This document shows, piece after piece, positions 1,214-62,700 of a stretch of DNA of 64,000 nucleotides. The translations under genes and the position numbers were made by a program. Each line of letters opens with the position of its first letter. Within the stretch, counting starts at the first letter, position 1. This DNA is from Tribonema minus. Lineage: Eukaryota > Sar > Xanthophyceae > Tribonematales > Tribonemataceae. The notes below the pieces were generated by a model. It was not told where the DNA came from. It made no database searches and saw nothing but the letters and a program-made list of their open reading frames with translations. The stretch covers positions 410,748-474,747 of the forward strand of contig JAFCMP010000023.1 in NCBI GenBank assembly GCA_017506865.1, in the 5' to 3' direction.

Positions 1214-4200
1214 ATGGCACCGCAGGAATACACTCATGGTGGCGTTACCGTGACTGAGGAGGACCTGGTTGATGGATACTCGGCCGAGATGATATTCTCA
1301 GCGGGAGCGATGAACAGGGGTTTTACATTCGACGACATGATTGCGCTGCCTGGTCAAATAGACTTTGGCGTGGAGCAGGTGAGATGGACTACAAATCATG
1401 TTAAAGATGTACTGATGAAACTCGCTTCTGCGGTTCTTGCCATTCCACTTGATGTTGCGCTGCTGCCAAGCTGCATGCGCTCTCCGCTGCCAAGTAAAAT
1501 GTAAAACGACAGCACTGCTCATCTCGTCCCTTGTCCGTGTGCCTGCGCCGCCGCAGGTGGACCTGAACACGAAGCTCACCCGCAACATCAAGCTGTCCTT
1601 CCCCTTCGCCTCCAGCCCCATGGACACTGTGACGGAGTCAAAGATGGCCATCGCCATGGCCCTGCAGGGCTGCATCGGCTTCATCCACTGCAACTGCAGC
1701 GCGGAGCGGCAGGTGGAGCAGGTCAAGAAGGTCAAGTCCTACGAGAACGGCTTCATCACGGAGCCCGCCGTCATGAGCCCCGACGCTCTGGTGTCAGCGC
1801 TCGACGCCCTCAAGGCGGAGCGCAACATCTCGGGCGTCCCCATCACGCAGGACGGCAAGATGGGCTCCAAGCTCGTGGGCCTCATCACGAAGCGCGACAC
1901 GGATCTGGTGGAGGACCGCGGCGCATCGCTCAGCACGTACATGACCCCCGCGGAGGGGCTCATTGTCGGCAAGAAGGGCATCTCGCTGGAGGAGGCGCAG
2001 ACGCTGCTCAAGGAGTGCAAGAAGGGATACCTACCCATCGTGAGTGCCGCGCCGCTCGCAGCGCCGCCGCTGCTGCTGCTGCTGCCATGGCACACGCGCG
2101 TGCTACTGAGCCGCTCGGTGCGACGATTGCGTTTACTCGCAGCGGCTGTTTGTGTCTGTGTTGGGGAGGATGAAACGCTAGCCATGCAGAGGGTGAAGAA
2201 GCATGCGCACGTGCCTTGGCTATATGCACAGGGCCCCCGCAAAACATGTGTGGGCATCAAGCACCTTTAACAAACTATACGAGTGAGGACTTGCTTTGCG
2301 ACGGATGGCTCTTAGTTTTCACGTGTCAACACACTATGTGTGAAACGTCAACGAATACTTGACTTGCAAGGTGAGAAGATGCCAAAGAGCTATCGCAACG
2401 CGTTGCGAGACCTCTCAGCACAGTTTCTCAGCATGCAAGTTCTGCGCGGTGTTGTTGGTTCACAAACGCACTTCAGAGGCTCGCTACGGTGTTGTTGCAG
2501 TTCAGCGCATGGGATGTGCGTACCGCATTCACAGTCAAGAACAGTTTACCAAAGTGGCCCAGAGCTTTCGCAATTTCGGGGGGATTGTCAGGTACGTTAC
2601 AGAAGGCTACGGTTGTGTATGGCCTGCATCAGTGGTTTTTCAATACAACGCGCTTGGTAGAGTTCGATTCTGATCGCAAGACGCCGCCAATGGACCGTCG
2701 TCTCCAGATGGATAGCACTTCCACAAAGTGCAACATAACACTACCGACGCTGGTGCAGTCAGTGCCAGCAATTGCGTCTTGCGGGTGCCTGTGCGCCCCA
2801 CGAATGCAAGGTCGCCGATGCCTGGCCTCGGCACCCTTGACACAGAAGGCCATTTTTACTGCCATGAATGCGGCATTCTGCCAGAAAATTTTGAGAACAC
2901 ACTTGAAACTACTATTGGCGCCACATGGCTGACTCACCCAAACCCTACGTGACGTCAACCCTACATCGCCGCGGCTAATCCTACCTACCCGTCTCAACCG
3001 CCGCAAGGTGGACGACGCCGGCAACCTGGTGTCCCTCACCACGCGCACGGACCTGCTCAAGTCGCGCGACTACCCGCACTCCACCAAGAACGCCGCGACC
3101 AACACGCTGCGCTGCGGCGCCGCGGTGCTCGCGCAGGAGGGCCACCGGCCGCGCATCGACGCGCTCGCCGCTGCGGGCGTGGACGTCTTTGTCATTGACG
3201 AGCGGAATGGGTCCACGGACGCGCAGGTGGGTAGCGGGCGGCGCTGCGAACGCGCGGAATGCGGGCTTGAGTGTGTGTGTACGCGTACATGTATGACAAC
3301 GAATCCGACGCGCTCGCTGCAGCGGGCGTGGACGTCTTTGTCATTGACGCGCGGAATGGGTCCACGGATGCGCAGGTTGGCGGCAGCGCTCCGCCTTGAG
3401 ACAAGTAGAAGTGTATGCGTACAGTATGCTTCAAAATATGTACTTGAAGTATATATGTATACACACATGTTTATGCACGCACGCACGTGTATATGCATGT
3501 GTGATCATAAGTGTGTGTGCTTCAAAGGTGTGTTTATACATGTACTCTCCGTAGGGCGCGACTGCGCTGTCACCGCCGTCGGCTGGCTGCTGTTGTCATC
3601 ATGCATTAGCTGGTGTGAACAACGCACGGGTCACAGGTGTTGCACCTTGGTATTCGTTTGCGTGCATCTGACTGCCCTCTAGGGCACTTGATGAAGCGCC
3701 TTCTTTCTCAACTGCAATACTTCAAGCTGTGGTAGTTGAAGTATGCACATGCCCCTTTTTTGTCCTTGATCATGCGCCTGTAGGTGAAGCAGCTCCGGTA
3801 CATCAAGGAGAAGCACCCGGGGGTGGACGTGGTGGCGGGCAACGTGGTCACGTGCGCGCAGGCGCGCGTGCTGCTGGAGGCGGGCGCGGATGCGCTACGG
3901 GTGGGCATGGGCGCGGGCTCCGTCTCCACCACACAGCAGGTATGTTTGTTTGTCATATTGGAAAAAACAGTGCTCTTTTGTTACCTTTGTAGTCATGATC
4001 GAGAGCGCTGTGCCATGCATAATACATGTACACTTCACGCTCTTGATTAGACCATCAGGTATGCATGTACGTCCGCTTTTTGTTTTAGCAGTTTAGATGT
4101 TTCAAGTGGAACCGCTTTTATACAGTTCAGGGCGTCTTCACGCTGTGGCAAGGATGTTTCAAGTGGAACCGCTGCTGTTATACAGTTCAGGGCGTCTTCA

Positions 4201-35554: not shown

Positions 35555-35627
35555 GGACGGTTAGGGGATTCGAACCCCTGACCCCGACAACCCGAATGTC
35601 AGATCCTAACCGCTAGACCAAACCGTC
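35555..35627 (-). tRNA. tRNA-Pro (anticodon CGG)
   Basis: A 73-nt cloverleaf can be drawn by hand. The acceptor stem GACGGTT pairs with AACCGTC and the discriminator is C, as in eukaryotic tRNA-Pro. The A box lies in the D arm (TGGTCTAGCGG). The anticodon stem TGACA/TGTCG carries the loop TTCGGGT with anticodon CGG at 35592-35594. The T arm AGGGG-TTCGAAT-CCCCT contains the B box. A TTTTT terminator lies 3 nt beyond the 3' end (35547-35551). There is no intron. Confidence 0.92.
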
Positions 35628-50559: not shown

Positions 50560-51162
50560 TCCTGCGTGTGCAGCTGCTGCGGCATGCAAGTTTACACGCA
50601 ACAGCAACAGACAGCCTGGGCAAACTTCAACTGTCAGTTTTACTGGTGAAAGAAGAGAAAGAAGAGTGACACTAATATGTGAGGGTTGAGGTACACCCGT
50701 GAAGGCTGCCTGTCGTGCATGGGGTTGCTTCTGTGACGGATCCTGGCCGTACATGCGCAGCATGGATGTACCTGTACGTCTAAAGCAAGAGGCGTTCCAG
50801 ACTCTGTACAGAATCGTGATGTCGTATTTGACAAGACCCTGGAGATGTTTACAACATAATGTCGTGTAACACAAGCACACCAGTCAAACCAAGGTCATCA
50901 TGATGCAGCATGCGTGGGGCAATCGGGGACCTAGCCTGAGGCCGGAAAGACGTCTACACTTCAAGTGCTGGCCAACAGTGCAAGCGCCAAGTGCGCCTGA
51001 ACCATAATATCATGAGTGTTCATACCATGGTAATTCGGCAGCAATGGCGTAAAACTCAGCAGACGAACGCGCCACACGCGCACATAATCCTCGTGTTTGT
51101 CTCATCAGTTGCCATTGCTCTAACATCTGCATCAAATGCAAACACGGACCGTTGTAACTGTA
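50560..51162. other. Upstream region of the histidine phosphatase and left flank of the retrotransposon
   Basis: The segment holds the likely promoter of the histidine phosphatase, with GCAAACTTCAA at 50620-50630 on the plus strand. It ends with TGTA at 51159-51162, the left copy of the retrotransposon target-site duplication. No gene is seen. Confidence 0.55.
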
Positions 51163-51544
51163 TGATACAGCAAAGCAGCCTGGAGTCTATGTTCTTGAGC
51201 AATAGAGCTGCTGAGCTGCTAGTGACATCAAAGTGCAACCAACTTGCAGGGCAAACATCAGTGGGGCAAACAAAGACACACCTGTGTAGACATGACTGAA
51301 GAAGGAGAGTGAGCCCAATGGATATGGCTCAGCTCCAGAGGTCTTGCTGTCTCCCAGCCAGGATGGCCTCTTGTTGCTTGCCTTGTAGGTGCCTCGAGCA
51401 CTTGTTGTTGAAGCAAAAAAAGCCGTCCTCCTAGTTGCTGGCACAGGGCTTGAAGTTGAAGTACCGGTCCAGAGAACGGTCTCCCCCTTCCAGAGCTCCT
51501 GGCATTTCATGCTACTTGTAGCATAAAACAGAGAACTTGTATCA
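51163..51544 (-). repeat. 3' LTR of the retrotransposon
   Basis: The 382-bp LTR matches the copy at 62005-62387 except for one A fewer in an A-run (7 against 8). It begins TGATACAGC and ends TTGTATCA on the plus strand. It contains CTTGAAGTTGAAGTAC at about 51450, the same motif family as host gene promoters. Confidence 0.97.
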
Positions 51545-51556
51545 TCCCTCTTCTTT
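51545..51556 (-). other. Polypurine tract (PPT)
   Basis: On the minus strand AAAGAAGAGGGA lies directly against the 3' LTR. This is where plus-strand DNA synthesis is primed in LTR retroelements. Position and composition fit exactly. Confidence 0.85.
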
Positions 51557-51797
51557 GAAAGGGCCGCCGTCCGCGGCGCCCACTAGACTGGTGCGCGGAA
51601 GTCGACGTTTTATGATACTTGATATTCAGCAATCCGCCTGCTCTGTCGCATCATAGCCAGGTTCTTGTCTTGTCTAGGTTTAGGGTGCGTCACCGTTCAC
51701 CGTTCCTTCACGCCAAGCGCGTGAGCTCAACACGGCTTCAGGGTCAACACCGATGCTTCACCGCTCCTTCGCACCACGCGTGCGAGTTCAACGCGAT

Positions 51798-54700
51798 TCA
51801 ACATTTGCGCAGGCGTTTCTGGGGTCTAGTATCCCCGGTCTCGTGACTTGCAGCTGGCAAATCAATTTGTATGTCGGCCTTGAGCGGCTCCTCGGCGAGC
51901 TCGCGTGCCAGCATGAGGTTCCAAGATGAAGGTTCAGCTCGAGCGTCATCACGGTAATATTCGGCTCTGAGCTTCAAACGCTTCTCTAGAGGCTTTTGTC
52001 CTCGCGTGTTGGGGAACTCCACATCAAAAGTGAATTCTCCACAATCGCGCTTGGCGGACACAAGCCTAAGCAAGACGCCGCGGCTCCATCCGGAAGGGAA
52101 CCGGTAGCGGAGAACTTGGCCAACGTAGAGTGGTCCAAAGTCAGTTGGCAAGCATGGACTCACAGTCACTCTTACATTAGCAGGCGGGTCAGCCGTAAGG
52201 CTGGAGTCAAAGGTAGGTTCTGGCTCGTTGCGCTGACGCGCTAACCTACGCAGTCTGTCGCGTACGCCTTCGGCCATGAGCTTAGCAGCCCGTACCTGAG
52301 AAGACGTTAAGTCCTCCCACGTGCCATCAGAGTAGCGTACACGCCAGCGGGACAGCGCGAAGTCACGTACCTGGCCCCACAAGTAGTCAGTCGAGTTCGG
52401 CACATCGTTGACTTGCCGGACCACTTGCGTGCCGCAAGGGTATCGCAGCAATGCAGCATCTTTGGACAGCGTACAATCTTCGCGAGGAAGGTGACGTTCA
52501 GCGTATGGGGGAACGTTACCTTGGTGCTTGAGCTCATACAAAGCATGAAAAGTGTCCAGTACCCATGGTGGTATGAACACCAGTTCTACAAGCTCTTTCT
52601 CGCGCACCCACTCTGAAGTAGTGCCGTCGCGCGCCAGCCACTTGTATGACCAGCCGCCGTCCTCGTCAGCTCTGCGGTCCAGTATCTGGCACAATTGCTG
52701 GTCAGGGTCCAGCTCTTGCAGTTGCGCGGAGTCCAGGAGGGCATGTACTCCCTCAATGTCAAGTCGCGCGGGTCTGGGGTGATATGGCTTCATGTTTTCA
52801 ACATGCGCGGTGGTCTCGCGTATGCGCGTGCCCATGAGTTGGCATTGAAAAGAAAGCCCTGAGTCACCGTACGGAGCTACTAGCTTCCAGGGGCCAGTGA
52901 AATGCTCCTCAATGGCACTTGCGCGGCCGCGTGAAGGTAGTTTCTTGATCCACACATAGTCACCGACCTCCAAGTGTACAGTGCGTTGGATTTGGTCATT
53001 GCGAGCTTGAATGCGCTCAGCACGTTGCTGCAGCGCCTCGCCAACCGCCTCCTCAGCAAGTTTAAGATTTTCTTGCAGACGCTTTACCTCAGCATGTAGG
53101 TCTTGTGGACTTGCAGCCTCAGAGGTCAAAGCGTCAAGAGGGAAGCGTGCTTCGCGACCATAAACACAGAAGAATGGGGTCAGACCCGTCTCCTCCCTAG
53201 GCGTGTTCCTGAGCGCAAATTGCACGGCATCAAGGTATACATGCCAGCGTGCCTGGTAGCGAGAACAGAGTCTAGCAAGCGCTCGCTTGACGCGCCCATT
53301 CATGTTCTCAACGACGCCGTTAGACTGGGGGTGATATGCGCTGGTTTCAATCTTGTGCACTTTAAAGAAGGTGCAGAGCGTGGTTATCAGCGCACTCATG
53401 AATTCTGCGGCCCTGTCAGACATCAGCTCTTCCACAAGCGCGCCGCACTCAAAGAGCACTCTTGCCAGTAGGGGTGCGGCCTCAGCTGCTGATCGTGTCT
53501 TTACGGGGAAAAGCCAACAGTAGCCTGACCTAGCTTCGGTGATGATGAGCAAGTATCGATGCCCTTCTGAGGAAAGGACGCCGACTTCGGTGTAGTCCAC
53601 ATGCAAGCGTTGCCACATGTGTGTAGATGGCATCAGTGCTTGCTTGTACCTGGCAGTGGACTGCGGTTTGGTTTGTTGACAAGGGACGCATGAGCGTACG
53701 TAGTCTCGGACGTCAGCGCCTAACCCTCTCCAATACATGCGTTCCAGCACCTTTGCGTGCGTGGCAGCAGTCGAGGGGTGTTGAGCACTGCCATCATCAT
53801 GGCAAAGACGGAGCACAAGTGGCTTCAAAGCGTCGGGGACCACCCACTGAGTAATTAAGGTGCCCTTCTTTGACCGACTTGCCATGAAGTGCACGAGTAA
53901 ACCGTCAGGTTCAACTGTGAAAAACTCTTGGTTCTGGCTGACAAATTTGGCAAGGCTAGGGTCAGGGGTCTGGCCTTGTGTTTCCAGATAGTGCTTCACA
54001 GATGAACAGAAATGGTCACTTTCCTGCCAACGCACAAAGTTTTTGCGTTCCAGCATAGCAGGTGAAGACTCTAGGCGTGAGTCAGACTCTCCAGTCTGGG
54101 TTGACATATTGTCATCTGAAGTATCTGCTTCAGCGTCTTCAGCTCCAAGGGCAAGGTCAGTGATTTCGCTAGTTTCGGTTGGAGCAGTTGCATCTCCAAG
54201 CGGCGAGAGTATCGCAGCGCAGCTGTCCCAAATGTGCTCAGAATACGAGCCCAATTTCATGCTGCAAAGCATGGAAACGAGGGGAGTGTTTTCTAGTTCT
54301 GGTTCACCTCCCTCTTCTTTGAAAAGCGCGGTGTGCACGCACGCGCTCTCGTGCATGGTATCACTGAGGTCATGTACCTCCTGAGGTGTCAATGTACCCA
54401 TGCAGTTGCTCAGTTTTGTAGATATTTGTGCAAGTTTGTTAAATTTAAAAGCCGTGCCTCCCGGGCATGCCGTATAAGCACCTATGCGGCCTAGAAATGC
54501 TGGTGAGTCTTGCAGTTGTTCATCCTCAAAACGTACCCCAGACGGAGGTGCAGGTCCAGCATCGGTGCAGTCGGGCCACTGCTCGTCAGTGTGCTCGTAC
54601 TGCCTAGGTCCGATGATCTCCGTCATCTGAGGCATGCGTGAAGGGCAGTCTGCATTGCCATTGTCTTTGCCAGGCCTGTGTACGACCATGATGTCGTATT

Positions 54701-57700
54701 CCTGGAGACGCATGGCCCAATGTAGCAGCTTGCTATTGTGATTGTTCAAGGTCAAGAGCCAGCGAAGCGCAGACGCGTCGGTTACGACGGTTACAGGTCT
54801 GCCCCAAATGTAACCGCGGAAGTTGTTCAAAGCTAGCACTACAGCCAGACACTCTAGTGCAGTAGCACCAAGTTTTGCGTCCTGCACTGAGTTAATCTTG
54901 CTGAAAAATGCCACAACTACCTCTCTGGCAGGTTTGCCGTCAACTGTGTTGACACGGCGCGTGCTGGCCCAGGGGAAGTCCTTGTGCCGTTCACGTAATT
55001 TGTCTAGTGGCACGAATTGAGATAGAACACCAGCAACGGCTAGCTTGCTTGCGTCTGTATGTACTATAAAAGGTAGGTCAAAGTCTGGGTGCATGATCAC
55101 AGGAGCGTTTGACATGGCGTGCTTGAGTTTGGCCAGCGCCTCTTGGCGGCGTTTGGTCCACGACATGTCAGCGCCATCACGCGTACACTCGACTAGGGGA
55201 GCTGCAATATGCGCGAACCGATGTATGTAGCGCCTATAGTAATTGAAGCACCCCATGAGGACTTGCATTAGCCGTTTATCTACCTTGCCGTCCTTGCCTA
55301 CGGGTGGCATCATGTCGACCATGGCTTTTACTTTGTCCTCACATGGCTTGATTCCATACTTGCCCACCTTGTGGCCTAGGTATGTAACTTCTTCGGCAAA
55401 GAGTTGGCACTTGTGTCTAGACACACTCATGCCGTACTCTTCCACGCGTCGAAGTACATCGTCCAAGTGAGCTATATGGTCTTCTAAATTCTTGCTGTGT
55501 ACGAGCACATCATCAACGTACACGCACGCATGCGTTTGCCTGGCTGAGCCTAGGAGCTCATGCATGCATCTGGTGAATATGCTTGGCAGGCACACCAACC
55601 CAAACGGCGCGACCTTGTACTCCCAGAGTGAGCCATCAGGTGCCCGGAATGCCGTCTTGCAGGTTGATTCTCTAGTCATAGGTATTTGCCTGTAACCAGA
55701 AGCAAAGTCTAGTGCCGAGAATATGCGTGAGCCCGAGCATTTCTGAACCAAGTCGTCCATATTGCCAAGCCCATACTCATCACGGCGTGTAACTCTGTTG
55801 AGCGGCCTATAGTCAACGCAGAAACGGACCTTGTCCTTCTGAGTCACCAGCACTGGATTGCTAGCCCAAGGACCATTGGCAGGTCTGATCTGTCCGCGTT
55901 TGCGCTCATTTTCAATGGCTTCAAATATGATTTTAGCTTCGCGTTCAGCCCACCTGCGTGCCCTGTCGGCGATGGGCGCTGCGTCGCCTGTGTCAATGTC
56001 CACGTCAAAACGGTCCGTCACCTTGGGGTTCTTGGGGTCCTTGGCAAAGGCGCCTCGTCGCCGGCGAAGCACCTCCATGGCGCGGTCATAATAGGTGACG
56101 CCGTGTTGATCGCGTTGCTTGAGGATGTTGAAGATCTCCCCGTTCTTGTCACACAGCACTTCACGTAGCTCCTCGTCTGTGCAAGTTCCCAGCGAGGCAT
56201 TGTGCTCCTCTGCCACCTTGTGTCTGAATGCGGCTCGTTCCGCCTCAGCGCGCATGGCAGGGTCTGGTCTTGGCGAGTCGTGTTCTGGCACACACGAGGG
56301 GTCTGGCTGCTGCACAGGTCTTGATCTGTTTACAGCAGGTGTATCTGGTGCGTTTTGCCCAAGGTGTCTCAACGCAATTCTTGTCAAGTTAGTCACAAGC
56401 TCCTCTTTGCCAATGTCTAGGCTGCAGATCATGCCAGGGGCCTCAATGACGCCCAGCACTGCACCTCTAGGCACAAACACTGGCGCAGTGGAAGTGTTCT
56501 CGACTAACATCCCTAGTGGCTTGTTAGGTGCTACAAAGTCCACCGTATCCATGAGAACGGCACCTCTGGTGGCCAGCCTGTTTGTCATCACTGACGCCTC
56601 TGGCGCGTCAGGGGTGAGTAGCACTTCAACAGGGCCTGTGCACTGTACTGGTGGATGTGACACTACTTCAATGGTTTTAGCGGTGTCAGCTTTAAGCACC
56701 TGGTCACACGTTGTACGCAGCAAATAAGTGCGACTAGGCAAAGTGGGCCTCTGAGAAGACTTGGCTCTTGTAACACCCACCTTGATCGTGTTGGCAGCTG
56801 GGGGGTCTAGAGTCCCCAACTTAGCTTGTTCATGCATGGTAACGGCAGGTCCAGCGGATCCAGCGGGGTGGAATCGCATGCCATGTTCATAGGTGATGGA
56901 CGAGCCAAATTTGCCAAAGAAATGTGACCCCAAGATTGCCTCGTAAGGCAGGTCCACCACGTAAAAAGCGTGTGTGAATATGGTGTCTTTGAAGCGCACC
57001 TGGGCGTGCACTACACCTGAAATTGGCACAGACTTCTTGGCGTCTGCAAGTTCAACCGTGGTAAAATCACCCTCGGAGAGCGGGCAAATTGAACCCGGCG
57101 GCAACTGGTGTGCGCGTTCTGTGTTAATGAATTCGGCCTCGGCGCCGTTATCCACTAGCGCGTCAAGTACCAGTTCTTGTATGCCGTTACCAACTTGTGT
57201 GCGTATTGGCATGTGCACAAAGCCATTCTTCTTAGGTCTGCCGACTGCACGTGCCCTATGTAGAATCTTGGGAGGCTTGTCACGTGCTATGCGTCTGGGT
57301 TGAGCCTTGAAAACATCGGTAGCAATGCTACTAGCACTAGGCTGCTGAGCATCTGCATCACTGTCAGTGTCGCTCATTTCTCGCATTGCAACAGCACGTG
57401 GCGTCTCGACATGCGGCGCATGAGAAGCATGAGGAGTCAAAGGCTCTTCCTCATCTTCACCGTACGTCCAAGGCGTCTGCGAAACCGGTGCATCACTTCC
57501 AGGCCCAAATGATGCAAGTATGGCTTGGCCTACATTGCGTGTAAAACGCTGGAAGTTCCGCACGCAAGCACTAGCTAGGCGCAGTATTGCAGGCCGATCA
57601 GGACCGGAGTCTACCATCCATTCTGGCGGGGGAGAAGTGCGATCATGCACTACAACCTCACCTGGTAAGACGCCAGTAGCATCGCGAGGGCTTGGCCATT

Positions 57701-60700
57701 CCTCCGGCAAGGCAGCAACCGCGTGCAAGGCAAGCATGAGCGCTGACACGCAATTGGGTTGCACTAAGTTTGCAGCCCAGCGCTTCATCTGAGTGACAGT
57801 CCCGGAAGGATGTGGCTCAAAGTAGCCCAGCAAGTTCATGACCTGATCAACAGTCAAGACAAGGGCCTTATTAACTGGTCCTGCGTCTTTCTCACGTGGC
57901 TGATAAGACGAGGAGGGGCCCCGCCCAGGCTGGCGAGTAACAGGGCTAGGGAGCGGCATGTCAGTAGACAGCACGCCTTGCGTCGTGGGTTGCCTCGGGT
58001 CCCAATAAAACGTGTCATGGGAGCAACCAAGATGTTCACGGACCGTACGTGGCTTGCTGGTGCGAAAGCGCTCATTGAGAATTGCATTCAAGCGTGCAAA
58101 TCGTTCAGGCAACCGAGCAGCATTTGCAGCTGACACAGTATAGACGCGCTCACGTGAAGATGCACCATTAACGTCGGTCCCACGAAACTGCACCTCATAG
58201 GTGGAGTACCCCTTTGTACCCACGACGCGGCAGAAGTCACGCCATGAGCTTGATAGGAGCATCCTAGGCACGTTTTCGTTGATGACTAGAGCTGGCAGGC
58301 AATCGGCAGCAATCTCTGCAACATGTACAAGCGTGCGTGCTGCATCGCCTTCAATCCCCATTCCCGCAGGGGAAAACTCAACACAAGAAGATGTATTCCA
58401 AATCGCGTCTGGCTTGAGGTGCTTGAGCCTCTCGCGAACTTGGGGGCTAGATACATCTGCACATATGACCTCGGTGTCAGGGAAGAGTTTGCTGTACTCC
58501 TCACATGTACGCTTGCAGTTGTCTACCGCTAAGACCACCTGCACGTCAACGTCTGCTGCACGTGCGAACTCCTGCAACCCCCTATGTACACCCCCTATTC
58601 CACAGCACAACTCTGCCACCCGCAGCCGCCTTCTGTCCGAACGCCCCGCGTCGGCATCAGACGCCTCCTTAGTCTGCGGATATGACACGGGCGAAGTGGT
58701 GGAAGTAGGTGCAACGCATCTGGGGTCAGAGTCAGAAACGTCGGTCTTACCTGGCTGCGGAGTGGCAACATCATGAGTGACATCTCGCGCTGCAAGCGGC
58801 GCGCAACTGGTCGTGTCACTGGTGCCCAGAACAGTCAAAGGTGCGCTAGTGTCAAGTGCGCATACTGCTGGAGCGTCACTGGCATCTGGAGCAGTCAATG
58901 GTGCGCTGGTGTCAAGTGCGCGTACTGCTGGCTCACTATGCGCATACAAGAACGTGGCTAACATGCAAGTGCCAACGGTCTTGTCAAGCATGCGTGTAGT
59001 GACTTGTGTGCCGGCCTCAGTCGCCGCTGGTTGCACATCTAGCGCTTCTAGCACATCTTGCGTGGAGCTAGTGCAATGACCGCTGTGCCCAAGTTGCACT
59101 GGCGCGTCAACATCTATGAGTGCACTAGGCAAGGTGTGGAAAGCGGTGAGCGAACACTCACTTGTCTTGGCGCGCTTGGCGCGCAGCTCGTCGCGGCGCT
59201 TCTCCAGCTTGTCGTGGGGCCTCTTGGCGGCCTTCAGGCGCTCGATGCGGTGCTCGTACCATTCCGGGCACTCTTGGCAGTGCTCCCGGAGCTTGTTCTC
59301 TCCACCAAAGTGCTTGTGGCACCCGAAGCACTCGTCGCTGCTGGAAGCCCTGGCCTTGTCGCTCTTGGGCTTGGCCGGCTGCTTGGCAGGCTTGGCGGGA
59401 GCCATCGCCGCAGCCCTAGGGTGGCCCTCGTCCGAAGTGTCCATAGCGGCGCTGCCGCGCATGGCGCTAGTCTTGGCCTTGGCGCCCTCGTTGACGATAG
59501 CGAGCGCCATGCCCTGCCGCTCAGCTGCCTCTTTGAGGTTGCGCTTGAAGTCTGCGAGCTGTTGGGGACGCATGGCTTTGTAAAAGTCCTCGGTGCGGTC
59601 GACCATGGCGTTCCAGTCTTCAAGTATAAGGCGCTCCTTGCGGAAGTCTTGGCGAAGGGGCTGCGTCATGCGGTTGGAGAAGTGCGTCTTGAGCATGGTG
59701 ACGTCGACGACCGCGCCCTCGGGTCCGGCGCGCTCCGCAGCATGGAGTAGCTCGTCGGCAAACTGGCGTGGCGTCCAGTCTGGCTGCCAGACGAGGTCAG
59801 TGATCTCCATCATCGCCTCGGCGCGGTGAGCTGCGTTGTCGAAGCGCTTGGCGATCGCCGCCCAAAGCTCCTCGTAGTTCATGGAACCGCAGCCCTGAAC
59901 GCGCTCCAGCCCCGTAACAGGGTCCTTGTGCGCGATGATGAGCTGGTCTTGCTGATCCGCGGTCAGGCAACGGCGCAGAGCGAAGTCCCACTTGTCGTAG
60001 GGGACACTGTTGTAGTGGGCCGCCTGCTCGAAATGGCGGCGCGTCGTCTCGGTTGCGCCGGGGCGGAAGGGAATGGGGAGCGCCGTAGGGTTGAAGAACT
60101 TCTGCCAGCTCACGTCTTCATGGTGGCTAGAGCTCGCAGTGGCGGCAGCTGCAGGCGCGGCGAGTGGCGCTGCGCCCTCGAACGGCGCGCGCGCGGGGTT
60201 GATGACGTTGGCGAAAAGGCCGCTACTGCTAGTAGGCGCGGGGGCATAGCTGTGGCTAGCGGTGGGCGCGAGTAGGTCCGTCCCGGGATAGCCCACGGGC
60301 ATTGCGCGAAGCTGCTCCTCTTGGGTGCGCTGGGCAGCTTCGGTGAAGAGCGTCGGCGCGGTGAAGTTGACAAAGTGCGCCAGCGCCGCCGGTCCGGCGC
60401 GGCGCGCCGCATCAAAGTAATCTCGAATGCGGCGGTACCGCTCGACGCGGTCCGCGTGACGCCGCAGGTCCGATGCGCGCAGGGCGCGGCGGTGACGCTC
60501 CGCCTCGATGCGCGAGCGCCAGTCGGCGTCAGCTTCGGCCTCGATGGCTAGCTGCAGGGGCGTGGCGTGGGCAGTAGGCAGAGGACGCCGCTCGCGCTCC
60601 TCGTACAGCTCCTTGATCTTGGCGTCCGCGGCTAGAGTGTCGCGCTTGGCTTTGTCACGAGCAGCGTCATCTTGGGTAATGCGCTGGCCAAGCTCGACCT

Positions 60701-61274
60701 CGATGCCGCGGGCGACGCGCTCAACGTCGTCAGAAGAGGTCGGGGGGACGGCGGCGGCGCGTGGAGTTGCAGCGGTGCCGGCGCTGAAGAGGATGGCTGG
60801 GTCGAGGCTAGCAGTGGTGCTAGTAGCTGGACGCACCGAAGCGCTCACGCGCTCTGCAGCACGGCGCAGAGCCTCGTCGCTAATAGCGGGGAGAGCGGCG
60901 CGAAGTCCTCGGACGATGTCGTCCATCTGCTCTCGACCATCACCGGAAGCCGGGGCAGGTGCGGCGGATGTCGCGACCGGCAGGTTTCCGGAGGACGCGG
61001 GGGGACCTTGAGCTTGAGCGGCAGTGACAGGCGGAGTGGCAGTCGGTGTAGTCCCAGCGCTCGCAGGGGTCGAGGCGACCGCAGCCGACATGCCGCCCTG
61101 ATCGGCAGGAGGCGCCGACACAGGGTGCACAGGGGGGGGCTGTGCCTGCGGATCCGCACCGCCACCGCTACTCTCACCGCCGGTTCCCGCGCCACCCGTT
61201 TCCCCAACGGAGGCTAAGGCCGTCGCAGGCTGTTCGGCGTTGCCAGTGTGGATAGCACTTCCTCCCTGAGACAC
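51798..61274 (-). CDS. Gag-DNA methyltransferase-Pol polyprotein, 3158 aa, one open frame
   Basis: Domains in order by residue: Ala/Pro-rich N-terminus (1-200); Gag-like helical region (about 380-590); a zinc knuckle with C649, C652, H665, C669; a linker with ALDTSAPLT repeats (785-815); C5-cytosine methyltransferase (about 883-1182); aspartic protease VDNGAEAEF (D1375) with flap ILGSHFF; reverse transcriptase (about 1790-1965) with YVDD at 1919-1922; RNase H (D2074, E2141, D2166); integrase with HHCC (H2492, H2499, C2529, C2532) and D2560, D2620, E2656 (D-35-E); GPW-type module (about 2793); chromodomain-like stretch (2863-2897); and about 260 further residues with SH3/Tudor-like features. 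There is no stop or frameshift. Gag and Pol share one frame, so the Gag:Pol ratio is not set by frameshifting. Most full-length Ty3 polyproteins are half this size. The protease has DNG instead of DSG/DTG. Confidence 0.95.
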   Translation of the reverse strand: MSQGGSAIHTGNAEQPATALASVGETGGAGTGGESSGGGADPQAQPPPVHPVSAPPADQGGMSAAVASTPASAGTTPTATPPVTAAQAQGPPASSGNLPVATSAAPAPASGDGREQMDDIVRGLRAALPAISDEALRRAAERVSASVRPATSTTASLDPAILFSAGTAATPRAAAVPPTSSDDVERVARGIEVELGQRITQDDAARDKAKRDTLAADAKIKELYEERERRPLPTAHATPLQLAIEAEADADWRSRIEAERHRRALRASDLRRHADRVERYRRIRDYFDAARRAGPAALAHFVNFTAPTLFTEAAQRTQEEQLRAMPVGYPGTDLLAPTASHSYAPAPTSSSGLFANVINPARAPFEGAAPLAAPAAAATASSSHHEDVSWQKFFNPTALPIPFRPGATETTRRHFEQAAHYNSVPYDKWDFALRRCLTADQQDQLIIAHKDPVTGLERVQGCGSMNYEELWAAIAKRFDNAAHRAEAMMEITDLVWQPDWTPRQFADELLHAAERAGPEGAVVDVTMLKTHFSNRMTQPLRQDFRKERLILEDWNAMVDRTEDFYKAMRPQQLADFKRNLKEAAERQGMALAIVNEGAKAKTSAMRGSAAMDTSDEGHPRAAAMAPAKPAKQPAKPKSDKARASSSDECFGCHKHFGGENKLREHCQECPEWYEHRIERLKAAKRPHDKLEKRRDELRAKRAKTSECSLTAFHTLPSALIDVDAPVQLGHSGHCTSSTQDVLEALDVQPAATEAGTQVTTRMLDKTVGTCMLATFLYAHSEPAVRALDTSAPLTAPDASDAPAVCALDTSAPLTVLGTSDTTSCAPLAARDVTHDVATPQPGKTDVSDSDPRCVAPTSTTSPVSYPQTKEASDADAGRSDRRRLRVAELCCGIGGVHRGLQEFARAADVDVQVVLAVDNCKRTCEEYSKLFPDTEVICADVSSPQVRERLKHLKPDAIWNTSSCVEFSPAGMGIEGDAARTLVHVAEIAADCLPALVINENVPRMLLSSSWRDFCRVVGTKGYSTYEVQFRGTDVNGASSRERVYTVSAANAARLPERFARLNAILNERFRTSKPRTVREHLGCSHDTFYWDPRQPTTQGVLSTDMPLPSPVTRQPGRGPSSSYQPREKDAGPVNKALVLTVDQVMNLLGYFEPHPSGTVTQMKRWAANLVQPNCVSALMLALHAVAALPEEWPSPRDATGVLPGEVVVHDRTSPPPEWMVDSGPDRPAILRLASACVRNFQRFTRNVGQAILASFGPGSDAPVSQTPWTYGEDEEEPLTPHASHAPHVETPRAVAMREMSDTDSDADAQQPSASSIATDVFKAQPRRIARDKPPKILHRARAVGRPKKNGFVHMPIRTQVGNGIQELVLDALVDNGAEAEFINTERAHQLPPGSICPLSEGDFTTVELADAKKSVPISGVVHAQVRFKDTIFTHAFYVVDLPYEAILGSHFFGKFGSSITYEHGMRFHPAGSAGPAVTMHEQAKLGTLDPPAANTIKVGVTRAKSSQRPTLPSRTYLLRTTCDQVLKADTAKTIEVVSHPPVQCTGPVEVLLTPDAPEASVMTNRLATRGAVLMDTVDFVAPNKPLGMLVENTSTAPVFVPRGAVLGVIEAPGMICSLDIGKEELVTNLTRIALRHLGQNAPDTPAVNRSRPVQQPDPSCVPEHDSPRPDPAMRAEAERAAFRHKVAEEHNASLGTCTDEELREVLCDKNGEIFNILKQRDQHGVTYYDRAMEVLRRRRGAFAKDPKNPKVTDRFDVDIDTGDAAPIADRARRWAEREAKIIFEAIENERKRGQIRPANGPWASNPVLVTQKDKVRFCVDYRPLNRVTRRDEYGLGNMDDLVQKCSGSRIFSALDFASGYRQIPMTRESTCKTAFRAPDGSLWEYKVAPFGLVCLPSIFTRCMHELLGSARQTHACVYVDDVLVHSKNLEDHIAHLDDVLRRVEEYGMSVSRHKCQLFAEEVTYLGHKVGKYGIKPCEDKVKAMVDMMPPVGKDGKVDKRLMQVLMGCFNYYRRYIHRFAHIAAPLVECTRDGADMSWTKRRQEALAKLKHAMSNAPVIMHPDFDLPFIVHTDASKLAVAGVLSQFVPLDKLRERHKDFPWASTRRVNTVDGKPAREVVVAFFSKINSVQDAKLGATALECLAVVLALNNFRGYIWGRPVTVVTDASALRWLLTLNNHNSKLLHWAMRLQEYDIMVVHRPGKDNGNADCPSRMPQMTEIIGPRQYEHTDEQWPDCTDAGPAPPSGVRFEDEQLQDSPAFLGRIGAYTACPGGTAFKFNKLAQISTKLSNCMGTLTPQEVHDLSDTMHESACVHTALFKEEGGEPELENTPLVSMLCSMKLGSYSEHIWDSCAAILSPLGDATAPTETSEITDLALGAEDAEADTSDDNMSTQTGESDSRLESSPAMLERKNFVRWQESDHFCSSVKHYLETQGQTPDPSLAKFVSQNQEFFTVEPDGLLVHFMASRSKKGTLITQWVVPDALKPLVLRLCHDDGSAQHPSTAATHAKVLERMYWRGLGADVRDYVRSCVPCQQTKPQSTARYKQALMPSTHMWQRLHVDYTEVGVLSSEGHRYLLIITEARSGYCWLFPVKTRSAAEAAPLLARVLFECGALVEELMSDRAAEFMSALITTLCTFFKVHKIETSAYHPQSNGVVENMNGRVKRALARLCSRYQARWHVYLDAVQFALRNTPREETGLTPFFCVYGREARFPLDALTSEAASPQDLHAEVKRLQENLKLAEEAVGEALQQRAERIQARNDQIQRTVHLEVGDYVWIKKLPSRGRASAIEEHFTGPWKLVAPYGDSGLSFQCQLMGTRIRETTAHVENMKPYHPRPARLDIEGVHALLDSAQLQELDPDQQLCQILDRRADEDGGWSYKWLARDGTTSEWVREKELVELVFIPPWVLDTFHALYELKHQGNVPPYAERHLPREDCTLSKDAALLRYPCGTQVVRQVNDVPNSTDYLWGQVRDFALSRWRVRYSDGTWEDLTSSQVRAAKLMAEGVRDRLRRLARQRNEPEPTFDSSLTADPPANVRVTVSPCLPTDFGPLYVGQVLRYRFPSGWSRGVLLRLVSAKRDCGEFTFDVEFPNTRGQKPLEKRLKLRAEYYRDDARAEPSSWNLMLARELAEEPLKADIQIDLPAASHETGDTRPQKRLRKC
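57720..58637 (-). other. C5-cytosine DNA methyltransferase domain within the polyprotein
   Basis: Residues about 880-1185 hold the ordered motifs of the family. Motif I is AELCCGIGGVHRGL (887-900). An acidic residue follows in VVLAVDNC. Motif IV is SSCVEFSPAG with the presumed nucleophile C964; most family members have PPC. Motif VI is INENVPRML with E1000. Motif VIII is GASSRERVYTV (R1041, R1043). Motif IX-like is LVLTVDQVMNLLGYFE (1138-1153), and motif X-like is AANLVQPNCVSALML (1167-1181). The region between VIII and IX is short, so the target-recognition part is small. The layout resembles bacterial-type single-domain enzymes without accessory reader domains. Predicted activity is 5-methylcytosine formation; specificity is unknown. 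Confidence 0.93.
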
Positions 61275-61984
61275 ACGACAAAGTTGGCAACTCGTTGCTA
61301 GTACGCACTTCTGTGTAGAGCGGGCAAACGCTCAAAATGTGCGCGTCGACGGCGTGCCAGAGCGCTCAAGATTTTCAAAGTGCTCAAAGTTTATGCAATC
61401 TGCTCAGAGGTTATGCAGAAGCCGATAATTCCCCTTTCCACTTGAAAAAGCGTGCCAGGGTCGGCCTAGGCGAGTCTAGCCAGCGTGTGGACAACTCCAC
61501 ATTGTCAACTCAAAATGCGTCGGGGTGATCAGTCCCGTTGCATACATGAGTTTTCACGCTGCACGCAACATTGTGCCGAGGTGCACGAATCAGTTAGCGG
61601 CGCTCACACTAACTGACGGAAAACGCTGTTGCATGGTTGCGTGTCCATGCTCACGGATTCCTCAAAGTAGCTGGAGCACCTAGTCTGACAGTACAGCCAG
61701 TTGTGCCTAGCAGCCGTGTGCTGGAAGGGAAACACCGTGAGCTTCGTTGATCGCATGCTGTCGTCTGCAGGACTAAACAGCACGGACTTGCCATAGCATG
61801 CGAGCAACTGATAGACGCTGGGCAGTCTTAGTACATAGCAGCGTCCCTATGTGTCTGTTGCACCGCCAGCGCGACCCCGTCGCGGACGCAGTACTTCAGA
61901 ACACCTTCGTGGCCTAAGTGCACGGCATTAAACTGTGTCGGAGTAATCGACAGAGTCTTCAAAGTCTAGCACCGATGTTGTCGC

Positions 61985-62004
61985 CGGCAAGTGGAGCTGA
62001 GCCA
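61985..62004 (-). other. Primer-binding-site-like sequence
   Basis: Directly inside the 5' LTR the minus strand reads TGGCTCAGCTCCACTTGCC. It begins with TGG, the complement of a tRNA CCA end, with no spacer. I could not match the rest to a particular tRNA, and it does not match the window's tRNA-Pro. Confidence 0.65.
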
Positions 62005-62387
62005 TGATACAGCAAAGCAGCCTGGAGTCTATGTTCTTGAGCAATAGAGCTGCTGAGCTGCTAGTGACATCAAAGTGCAACCAACTTGCAGGGCAAACAT
62101 CAGTGGGGCAAACAAAGACACACCTGTGTAGACATGACTGAAGAAGGAGAGTGAGCCCAATGGATATGGCTCAGCTCCAGAGGTCTTGCTGTCTCCCAGC
62201 CAGGATGGCCTCTTGTTGCTTGCCTTGTAGGTGCCTCGAGCACTTGTTGTTGAAGCAAAAAAAAGCCGTCCTCCTAGTTGCTGGCACAGGGCTTGAAGTT
62301 GAAGTACCGGTCCAGAGAACGGTCTCCCCCTTCCAGAGCTCCTGGCATTTCATGCTACTTGTAGCATAAAACAGAGAACTTGTATCA
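62005..62387 (-). repeat. 5' LTR of the retrotransposon
   Basis: The 383-bp LTR is identical to 51163-51544 apart from one extra A. On the minus strand it reads TGATACAAG at its start and ends CTGTATCA. Promoter and R-region boundaries cannot be fixed from sequence alone. Confidence 0.97.
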
Positions 62388-62700
62388 TGTATGTACACAC
62401 CGTCTGGCCTTTTTCGTACACGGCGCCGCTCCTTCGGCACAACCCTGCATGCGCATTACCACCAAGCATCACACCCCACAACACCCCCTTCCGTCTATGG
62501 AGCAGGATGTTATTCCCTTTGTGGCTGCGACATCGAGGCAGGACTCAGCATTCAGCAGCCCCCCCCCCCCCCTCCCTTTCCCCCCTCTCACAGCCACCGC
62601 ACACTGTGTTGGCCAGACACACGACCCACATAAACACGCCACGCCGGCGCGCCCTCTCCCCCCACTCACAACCACCGCGCTGTGCTCTACGCACTAGAAC
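62388..62700. other. Right flank of the retrotransposon
   Basis: The region starts with the TGTA target-site copy and continues as spacer containing a poly-C tract (about 62560-62572) down to the kinase stop codon. It would hold the kinase 3' UTR. No gene is seen. Confidence 0.55.

Follow-up and report, generated by a model that had tools for sequence, protein, structure and literature searches.

The window, by which we mean the whole stretch of 64,000 nucleotides that was analysed, contains a complete, young, autonomous-looking Ty3-type LTR retrotransposon (51163-62387, minus strand) with a built-in C5-cytosine DNA methyltransferase (DNMT) domain. This identity, proposed by a first-pass annotation, was confirmed by the LTRs, by Pfam and PDB domain matches and by repeated loci in the genome. 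In the preferred reading, given a probability of roughly 55%, the DNMT of this young element was captured by an ancestor of its lineage, was kept by selection and most likely has as its substrate the cDNA of the element itself or insertion-site DNA.

Architecture of the element

All features given here lie on the minus strand, except for the unstranded target-site duplication. The ends were defined by the LTR pair: the 3′ LTR (51163..51544; 382 bp, TG...CA) and the 5′ LTR (62005..62387; 383 bp) were compared and differ by one A within an A run, the rest being identical. The duplication TGTA was read from the sequence on the left (51159..51162) and on the right (62388..62391), so that the LTR pair and duplication annotated at first both stand. 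The polypurine tract AAAGAAGAGGGA (51545..51556) adjoins the 3′ LTR and the primer-binding site TGGCTCAGCTCC (61993..62004) adjoins the 5′ LTR, both identical in family C. These features (TG...CA LTRs, 4-bp duplication, primer-binding site, polypurine tract) make up the hallmark set of Metaviridae (Ty3/Gypsy), and the Pol order of reverse transcriptase (RT), RNase H and integrase is likewise that of Ty3/Gypsy. DIRS features (tyrosine recombinase, split repeats) were absent from the element, with integrase matches and plain LTRs found instead.

Gag-DNMT-Pol is encoded in one open frame (51798..61274; 3158 codons when counted from a GTG, with the first in-frame ATG at position 61091, residue 62). 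The earlier description of this frame was upheld for its unbroken length and for DNMT, RT, RNase H and integrase, but not for a zinc knuckle pattern or a chromodomain, and the protease match is weak. Gag was assigned from position, no Gag family being matched in the Pfam scan of the window protein. A putative C2HC-type zinc-binding motif (residues 649-678; 59241..59330) was recognised by sequence reading close to where the Gag region ends. The classical zinc knuckle pattern is CX2CX4HX4C; the motif at residue 649 reads CX2C-X12-HX3C and does not warrant that label. A comparable CX2C-X11-12-H-X3-5-C was seen by eye in P0002, P0003, P0005 and L049.

The aspartic-protease region (residues 1369-1452, DNGA; 56919..57170) gave a weak Pfam match (E 0.14), which is stronger in the relatives P0003 (7.9e-5) and P0008 (1.7e-4), and lies at a matching place in P0003, P0005, P0008 and P0026. 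The RT (residues 1814-1970, YVDD; 55365..55835) was matched by Pfam RVT_1 at 6.9e-32 and its best PDB match was Ty3 7q5b (5.1e-81). It is followed by RNase H (54696..55085; Pfam RT_RNaseH 6.9e-22), the integrase zinc-binding (H2C2) domain (53661..53840; Pfam 5.8e-17) and the integrase core (53328..53612; Pfam rve 1.7e-6, 28.7 bits, below the cut-off of 32.6); PFV integrase in the PDB matches the window integrase at 1.6e-19. A segment resembling a chromodomain (ILDRRADEDGGWSYKW...; 52590..52712) was picked out by eye. With the E limit set at 1, neither the window protein nor any of four family members matched Pfam Chromo; instead, a Tudor-like segment (PTM_DIR17_Tudor; 52290..52388) was weakly matched in the window protein (E 0.0014, 18.8 bits, below the cut-off of 27.2) and in all four scanned family members (best 6.6e-5). 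The chromodomain-like module was given up on these grounds. The window protein may have a remote chromo-like fold, and the element would not be placed by its sequence among the chromoviruses, defined by a C-terminal chromodomain.

The methyltransferase domain

The C5-cytosine DNA methyltransferase core was taken as residues 883-1196 (57687..58628), based on Pfam PF00145 (DNA_methylase; residues 885-1075, E 1.1e-14) and an alignment of six sequences, A1. Motif-like segments I (GIGG, within residues 884-895), IV (SSCVEFS, 962-968), VI (ENV, 1000-1002), VIII (RERVY, within 1040-1045) and IX/X (1138-1180) are present in order in one unbroken frame, as first described. The SAM motif, the predicted catalytic Cys, the ENV and the RxR thus follow the C5-methyltransferase order, and all six sequences of A1 share the Cys, the ENV and the motif VIII RxR without change. 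This Cys is usually preceded by Pro; family A and the family B copy L032 have Ser at that place and P0005 has Asp, with Pro kept in families C, D, E and F and in P0003, P0004, P0009 and P0026. Activity of the window DNMT could be altered by this Ser. As judged from its motifs, the domain appears intact and is a predicted enzyme.

The only PDB matches of the window domain at E up to 0.01 were two DNMT2/TRDMT1 entries (3.3e-8 and 4.5e-8). With the profile of A1, the top three were tRNA C38 methyltransferases/DNMT2 (best 7.6e-12), followed by M.HhaI (5.3e-9), and the DNMT2 and M.HhaI matches span mainly the N-terminal half of the domain. None of the 30 distinct PDB sequences matching the profile at E up to 0.01 is named as DNMT3, and by this similarity the window DNMT appears to fall outside the DNMT3 family. 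A viral origin was considered and set aside, as viral_contigs, scanned once with a single peptide pattern, yielded no relative of the DNMT. A bacterial source was likewise considered; the matched Aureimonas enzyme P0014 is too distant for a donor to be named.

Copies and relatives in the genome

The full DNMT score was reached at no fewer than 13 loci, window included, among the 113 matches listed (110 of 396 candidates scored), and the 23 best copies are 98-100% identical. In 16 of these 23, RT starts 2676-2686 bp past the DNMT start (92 of 640 candidates scored in the RT search); two gave partial RT matches only and five gave none. A chimeric assembly join, one of two findings that the first-pass annotation had named as fatal to its reading, is ruled out by the full-score loci and the constant spacing, and the other, that no further copy carries the DNMT in the same position, is excluded as well. 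Copy numbers are approximate because contig numbers and coordinates suggest that some loci sit on very short contigs, possibly haplotigs or collapsed repeats.

Families in the genome at 63%, 35% and 33% DNMT identity share the order DNMT-protease-RT, which was also found in database polyproteins (P0003 and P0005 by Pfam, P0004 by eye). In families C, D and E (L039-L041), whose LTRs were examined, the DNMT precedes protease and RT, the protease being called by Pfam in E and by eye in C and D; the same order was seen by eye in family F (L049). The RT tree, built from polyproteins found through the window RT and elements of the same genome and so informative within that set and not on other superfamilies, and the DNMT tree each place these members in one clade and agree in the main. 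For the DNMT domain, dN/dS was 0.15 between families A and B (dS 0.81) and 0.225 between A and C (dS 1.5), which supports purifying selection on the domain at the sequence level. The agreement of the trees together with the A-B value points to one capture followed by retention. P0023 and P0024 (47-49% RT identity) are listed as proteins without a DNMT; since both start near the protease, an upstream DNMT is possible. The C290 group was dropped as a DNMT-free relative when a DNMT was found there.

Beyond this clade, at least 123 PF00145 matches were counted in the genome (123 of 378 candidates scored), so that the rarity claimed for such enzymes does not hold within this genome. Close examination covered the window element and nine retroelement-like DNMT loci (L005-L008, L039-L041, L045, L049), which fall into at least two Ty3 lineages; L001-L003 are methyltransferase frames that stand alone and, judged by eye, resemble those of phages or giant viruses. 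The second lineage is represented by the type II locus L045 (C101:634500-643499), which like the window element combines a Ty3-type Pol with a C5 methyltransferase (PF00145 positions 3-316 of 324 matched). Its DNMT lies downstream of a protease-like segment (by eye), whereas that of the window element lies upstream of the protease; it has a Pfam Chromo domain, which the window element lacks, and its RT falls outside the window element's clade. No LTRs were seen within these 9 kb. At least two more layouts occur among database polyproteins, one of them combining a Dam-like with a partial DNMT-like domain. With two distant lineages differing in the polyprotein position of the DNMT, we see an even chance that DNMT capture by Ty3 elements is recurrent and selected, and that the enzymes, being of non-DNMT3 kind, would form a bacterial- or DNMT2-like methylation system of their own beside that of the host.

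As to the host, 92 light-harvesting matches were counted exon by exon. The best PDB chains were fucoxanthin chlorophyll a/c proteins for L058 and, for L059, LHCI-11, -9, -8 and -6 of 9vfj, then ACPI/CAC. We take these matches to point to a photosynthetic host, probably an alga of chlorophyll a/c type, with which a dinoflagellate would also be compatible.

Proposed role, alternatives and precedents

According to the preferred reading, a DNMT domain would have been captured by an ancestor of the Ty3 lineage, as the trees and dN/dS suggest, and amino-acid-level selection would have preserved it while the lineage diverged into families that share 33-63% DNMT identity. The polyprotein would be packaged into a virus-like particle, the protease would release the methyltransferase, and the freed enzyme would act on the element's cDNA or on insertion-site DNA. 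The incoming copy would gain a chosen methylation state, for example one resembling host DNA or one suited to settling in tolerated chromatin.

The window element may methylate itself, but both CpG footprints failed against copia controls, which lack a DNMT. LTRs of families A and C are strongly CpG-poor (o/e 0.17 and 0.13), and the window LTR lies below all 508 overlapping same-size windows left of the element; the window ORF has an o/e of 0.91, its interior being without clear CpG depletion. Depletion was also seen in the LTR pairs of all four copia elements (0.36-0.62; about three families, two elements being 98.7% alike and none having a Pfam DNMT), and the LTRs of DNMT families D and E (0.42-0.65) are no lower, so a CpG-poor LTR was rejected as a DNMT-specific mark. 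The same values bear on the idea that the DNMT restrains its own element, with fewer harmful jumps and longer survival, for instance by LTR promoter methylation after insertion: the depletion in A, C and the window LTR would fit, the copia, D and E values speak against it, and we regard it as distinctly unlikely. First counts of CpG deamination gave a ratio of 2.2 for DNMT elements vs 1.1 for one copia pair. Over 17 DNMT pairs (drawn from 55 possible) the range was 0.90-3.09 (median 2.1) and over 17 copia pairs 0.90-3.26 (median 1.8; medians by hand). C>T changes polarised with an outgroup, worked out by hand, were about 1.5 times as frequent at CpG as in other contexts in seven DNMT copies and about 1.7 times in five copia copies, and an excess in DNMT copies was discarded given this result and the wide overlap. 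The transition:transversion ratio was higher in DNMT copies (112:21) than in copia (106:52). The copia LTR pairs are 98.3-100% identical, so a DNMT is unnecessary for spread.

That the DNMT modifies RNA, such as the primer tRNA or the genomic RNA, and not DNA is unlikely, even though the DNMT2-kind tRNA methyltransferases are the closest PDB matches, a Gag-proximal position would suit an RNA-binding particle, and RNA methylation is raised for SymbioLINE-Dnmt in the consulted part of PMC5890265; the DNA enzyme M.HhaI comes next, and the matches cover mainly the N-terminal half. That the domain has lost catalysis and serves as a structural or nucleic-acid-binding part would agree with the Ser or Asp before the Cys, but we hold it improbable against the invariant Cys, ENV and RxR, the Pro retained elsewhere and the purifying selection. 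Least probable, and very much so, is methylation of foreign DNA in defence of host or element against invaders such as DNA viruses, as Morozov et al. suggested for the methylases of transposons (PMC6338049, consulted in part); the stand-alone phage- or giant-virus-like frames in the genome would fit it, but the element layout gives no hint of DNMT expression outside the polyprotein.

The precedents in dinoflagellates and charophytes that the first-pass annotation named were found, within the consulted parts of de Mendoza et al. 2018 (PMC5890265), as Symbiodinium and Klebsormidium nitens elements. The closest, KnitGypsy-Dnmt3 of K. nitens, shares with the window element an LTR Gypsy type, a C5 methyltransferase encoded within the frame of the polyprotein, a presence in multiple copies and purifying selection on the domain. 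As described there, it differs in its DNMT3-family enzyme (the window DNMT matches DNMT2, HhaI and related chains, none named DNMT3), located in the Pol polyprotein rather than between Gag and protease, in a DIRS-like repeat arrangement instead of plain LTRs, and in its charophyte host, which the window element's host is not if the light-harvesting matches are read rightly. SymbioDIRS-Dnmt3 and SymbioLINE-Dnmt of Symbiodinium resemble the situation in this genome, with C5-methyltransferase retroelements in several families at high copy number (same source), but use DIRS and LINE machinery, whereas the window element is a Ty3 element with a DDE-type integrase. In yeast, SymbioDIRS-Dnmt3 domains, of another DNMT class, gave de novo CG methylation, while KnitGypsy-Dnmt3 and SymbioLINE-Dnmt gave no activity, a result its authors call inconclusive (PMC5890265). 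DIRS1-like elements (PMC3266345, consulted in part) also fuse a methyltransferase to a retroelement Pol, but with an adenine-type enzyme (Dam-like per PMC5890265) and a tyrosine recombinase in place of C5 type and integrase. Comparable cases have already been reported from a few other algae; the window element is a new form of them and does not amount to a new kind.

Cytosine methylation is a main route of transposon silencing in genomes, and a transposon with its own methyltransferase therefore directly tests who controls this mark. In the parts consulted, the 2018 work covers a DNMT3 type and an orphan type in Symbiodinium and a DNMT3 type in one charophyte (PMC5890265). The present case combines a different enzyme, many young copies and at least two Ty3 lineages in one compact 158 Mb genome, in which recent DNMT-less copia elements serve as built-in controls.

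Structure and genomic copies of the element

The Ty3-type element occupies window positions 51163–62387 on the minus strand, delimited by an LTR pair of 382 and 383 bp, whose sole difference is one A within an A run, and by a TGTA target-site duplication on both sides. A PBS-like sequence, TGGCTCAGCTCC, adjoins the 5′ LTR and the PPT, AAAGAAGAGGGA, adjoins the 3′ LTR. The coding frame (51798–61274) is free of interruptions over its full length and comprises 3158 codons if counted from GTG; the first ATG, at residue 62, is the more likely eukaryotic start. Located along the polyprotein were a C2HC zinc motif (residue 649), the C5-cytosine methyltransferase domain (DNMT; residues 885–1075 by Pfam, core set at 883–1196), a weakly matching protease region (about 1369–1452), reverse transcriptase (RT; 1814–1970), RNase H (2064–2193) and integrase (2479–2649). 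LTRs, duplication, open frame and ordered domains were all found as described in the first-pass annotation, which had proposed a Ty3 element with a built-in DNMT in a single 3158-codon frame. Two of its assignments were revised: the supposed retroviral zinc knuckle is the C2HC motif, and the region past the integrase, where a chromodomain-like module had been described, gave a weak Tudor-like match instead. No Gag family was matched in the polyprotein, Gag being named from position alone. A 57-bp unit is present in two copies (84% identical, 60 bp spacing; 58815–58931) between zinc motif and DNMT. Surrounding host sequence includes IMP dehydrogenase gene exons (1437–3679, plus strand; by eye the gene continues with more exons as far as about 5.5 kb) and a tRNA-Pro(CGG) (35555–35627, minus strand).

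A search of the genome (158.18 Mb, 554 contigs) with the DNMT domain, in which 110 of 396 candidates were scored, yielded at least 113 matches; the full score was reached by 13, the window among these. For 16 of the 23 best matches, the RT match begins 2676–2686 bp downstream of the DNMT match, so the DNMT occupies the same position at many loci; two of the remaining loci have a partial RT match and five have none among the RT candidates scored (92 of 640). This shared placement rules out a chimeric assembly join as the source of the DNMT.

Related families, descent and constraint

In all four related families C to F of the same genome, the DNMT lies upstream of protease and RT; the protease was a Pfam match in E and read by eye in C, D and F, and the Gag side was read in F alone. 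DNMT identity to the window element is 63% in C (contig C4; LTR pair 100% identical), 35% in D (C121; 96.7%) and 33% in E (C168; 99.5%), while F lies on C290. The same DNMT–protease–RT order was found in the database proteins P0003 (3112 aa) and P0005 (1769 aa) by Pfam, and in P0004 (3241 aa) by eye. Across 1023 aa, family C (locus L039) shares 99% identity with the ENA protein P0002, so ENA already contains sequence from the host or one of its close relatives. The PBS, compared at loci L042–L044, varies by family: TGGCTCAGCTCC in A (the window element and close copies) and C, TGGCACCTACAGACAG in D and TGGCACCCGAAGACAG in E.

In the RT tree (30 rows), a single clade (support 99/96) unites families A and C to F with P0003–P0005; a wider clade (100/100) adds P0026, of DNMT–protease–RT layout, and P0023 and P0024, whose listed proteins lack a DNMT. 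The same elements cluster in the DNMT tree (12 rows including P0026, 97/94), which holds 23 of 25 prepared rows, P0081 and P0088 being omitted as short and divergent. A group of A, C and P0003–P0005, joined for the DNMT by family B (copy L032) and P0009, received 100/100 in both trees. Family E groups with the A group in the RT tree (82/32, weak) and with D and F in the DNMT tree (88/94). Despite this conflicting place of E, a single early DNMT capture, followed by inheritance, fits the trees best.

A second DNMT-bearing Ty3 lineage is represented by locus L045 (C101:634500–643499), in whose 2438-aa frame a DNMT (369–681) is accompanied by RT, RNase H and integrase as well as a chromodomain matched by Pfam, with the DNMT downstream of a protease-like segment (by eye). 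Forcing its RT into the window clade was rejected (AU p 6.5e-5), L045 being a long branch and the group named post hoc. The DNMTs of both lineages are neighbours in the DNMT tree with modest support (80/92); the pattern stems either from independent capture from related sources or from domain transfer between elements. Loci L005, L007 and L008 resemble L045 around the DNMT, the whole frame having been scanned in L045 only; L046, the stretch beyond L007, is split among several frames, yet RNase H, integrase and Chromo are present. Among database proteins, P0050 is arranged Gag-PR-DNMT-RT (partial DNMT match). P0081, P0082 and P0088 are Ty3-like polyproteins combining a Dam-like adenine methyltransferase domain with a C5-methyltransferase match; the layout in P0081 and P0088 is PR-RT-RH-Dam-IN-SH3-DNMT, with the Dam-like domain before the integrase and a partial C-terminal DNMT match.

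The DNMT is under constraint, weaker than that on RT. Between A and B (L032), its dN/dS is 0.15 (dS 0.81); the A–C comparison, in which dS is near saturation, gives 0.225 (DNMT), 0.10 (protease) and 0.02 (RT–RNase H). The D–E and D–F values for the DNMT (0.25 and 0.35) are both near saturation, and the A–D and A–E comparisons of this domain are saturated. Nine close copies gave 0.07–0.45, with few changes behind these figures.

Searched against PDB (E up to 0.01), the window DNMT matched two DNMT2 entries and no others; the six-member family profile retrieved DNMT2 first, M.HhaI next and then others, with none named DNMT3 among the 30 listed chains. The bacterial match was an Aureimonas enzyme (26% identity across 47% of the query). 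The residue preceding the catalytic Cys, usually Pro, is Ser in family A as well as in L032 of family B, and Asp in P0005, which calls for caution over enzyme activity. Loci L001–L003 hold stand-alone C5-methyltransferase frames (367–390 aa), phage- or giant-virus-like by eye and possibly viral insertions.

Tests for methylation footprints, precedents and possible role

CpG-poor LTRs with interiors not so depleted were observed in Ty3 and copia elements alike (L039–L044, L052–L055 and window), most strongly in A and C. The window LTR (51163–51544) has 4 CpG (o/e 0.17; ORF and UTRs 0.91–1.29); values are 0.13 in C and 0.42–0.65 in D and E. As a sign of self-methylation this failed, since four of four copia elements, all without Pfam DNMT, are also CpG-poor (0.36–0.62) and D and E lie within 0.42–0.65. 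In family A (seven copies, 133 polarised changes), the C-to-T rate at CpG was 37 per thousand sites (other contexts 19–31), versus 47 (17–38) in copia (five copies, 158 changes). Neither LTR CpG content nor polarised C-to-T changes gave a DNMT-specific footprint in family A versus copia. Unpolarised pairs showed a slight tendency to more CpG change for the DNMT element (median 2.1) than for copia (1.8). Transition bias was stronger in the DNMT element (112:21 in L022–L024, L026, L027, L029 and L031 of family A vs 106:52 in copia L054 and L061–L065).

Retrotransposon-borne DNMTs are already known. A Klebsormidium Gypsy element with DNMT3 is on record (PMC5890265), and excerpts of PMC12344493 mention LTR Copia and DIRS elements with DNMT3s in streptophytes and dinoflagellates. 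PMC6338049 reports Ty3/Gypsy and DIRS elements encoding DAM and DCM from stramenopiles, from charophytes and from both red and green algae; in its excerpts these are treated together, so an earlier sighting of a similar element is possible. Searches of open-licence papers turned up no report of a Gag–DNMT–protease Ty3 element, and none is described in the excerpts of PMC9998398, PMC11244446, PMC12477816, PMC11347835 and PMC3266345.

In a sister case, SymbioDIRS-Dnmt3, CG methylation was demonstrated in yeast; for KnitGypsy-Dnmt3 none was observed, inconclusively (PMC5890265). In Tribonema minus, the DNMT is encoded as part of the polyprotein, recurs in many young copies and is constrained. The polyprotein with its DNMT would be packaged, the protease may then free the DNMT, and the freed enzyme could act on the cDNA or on the insertion site.
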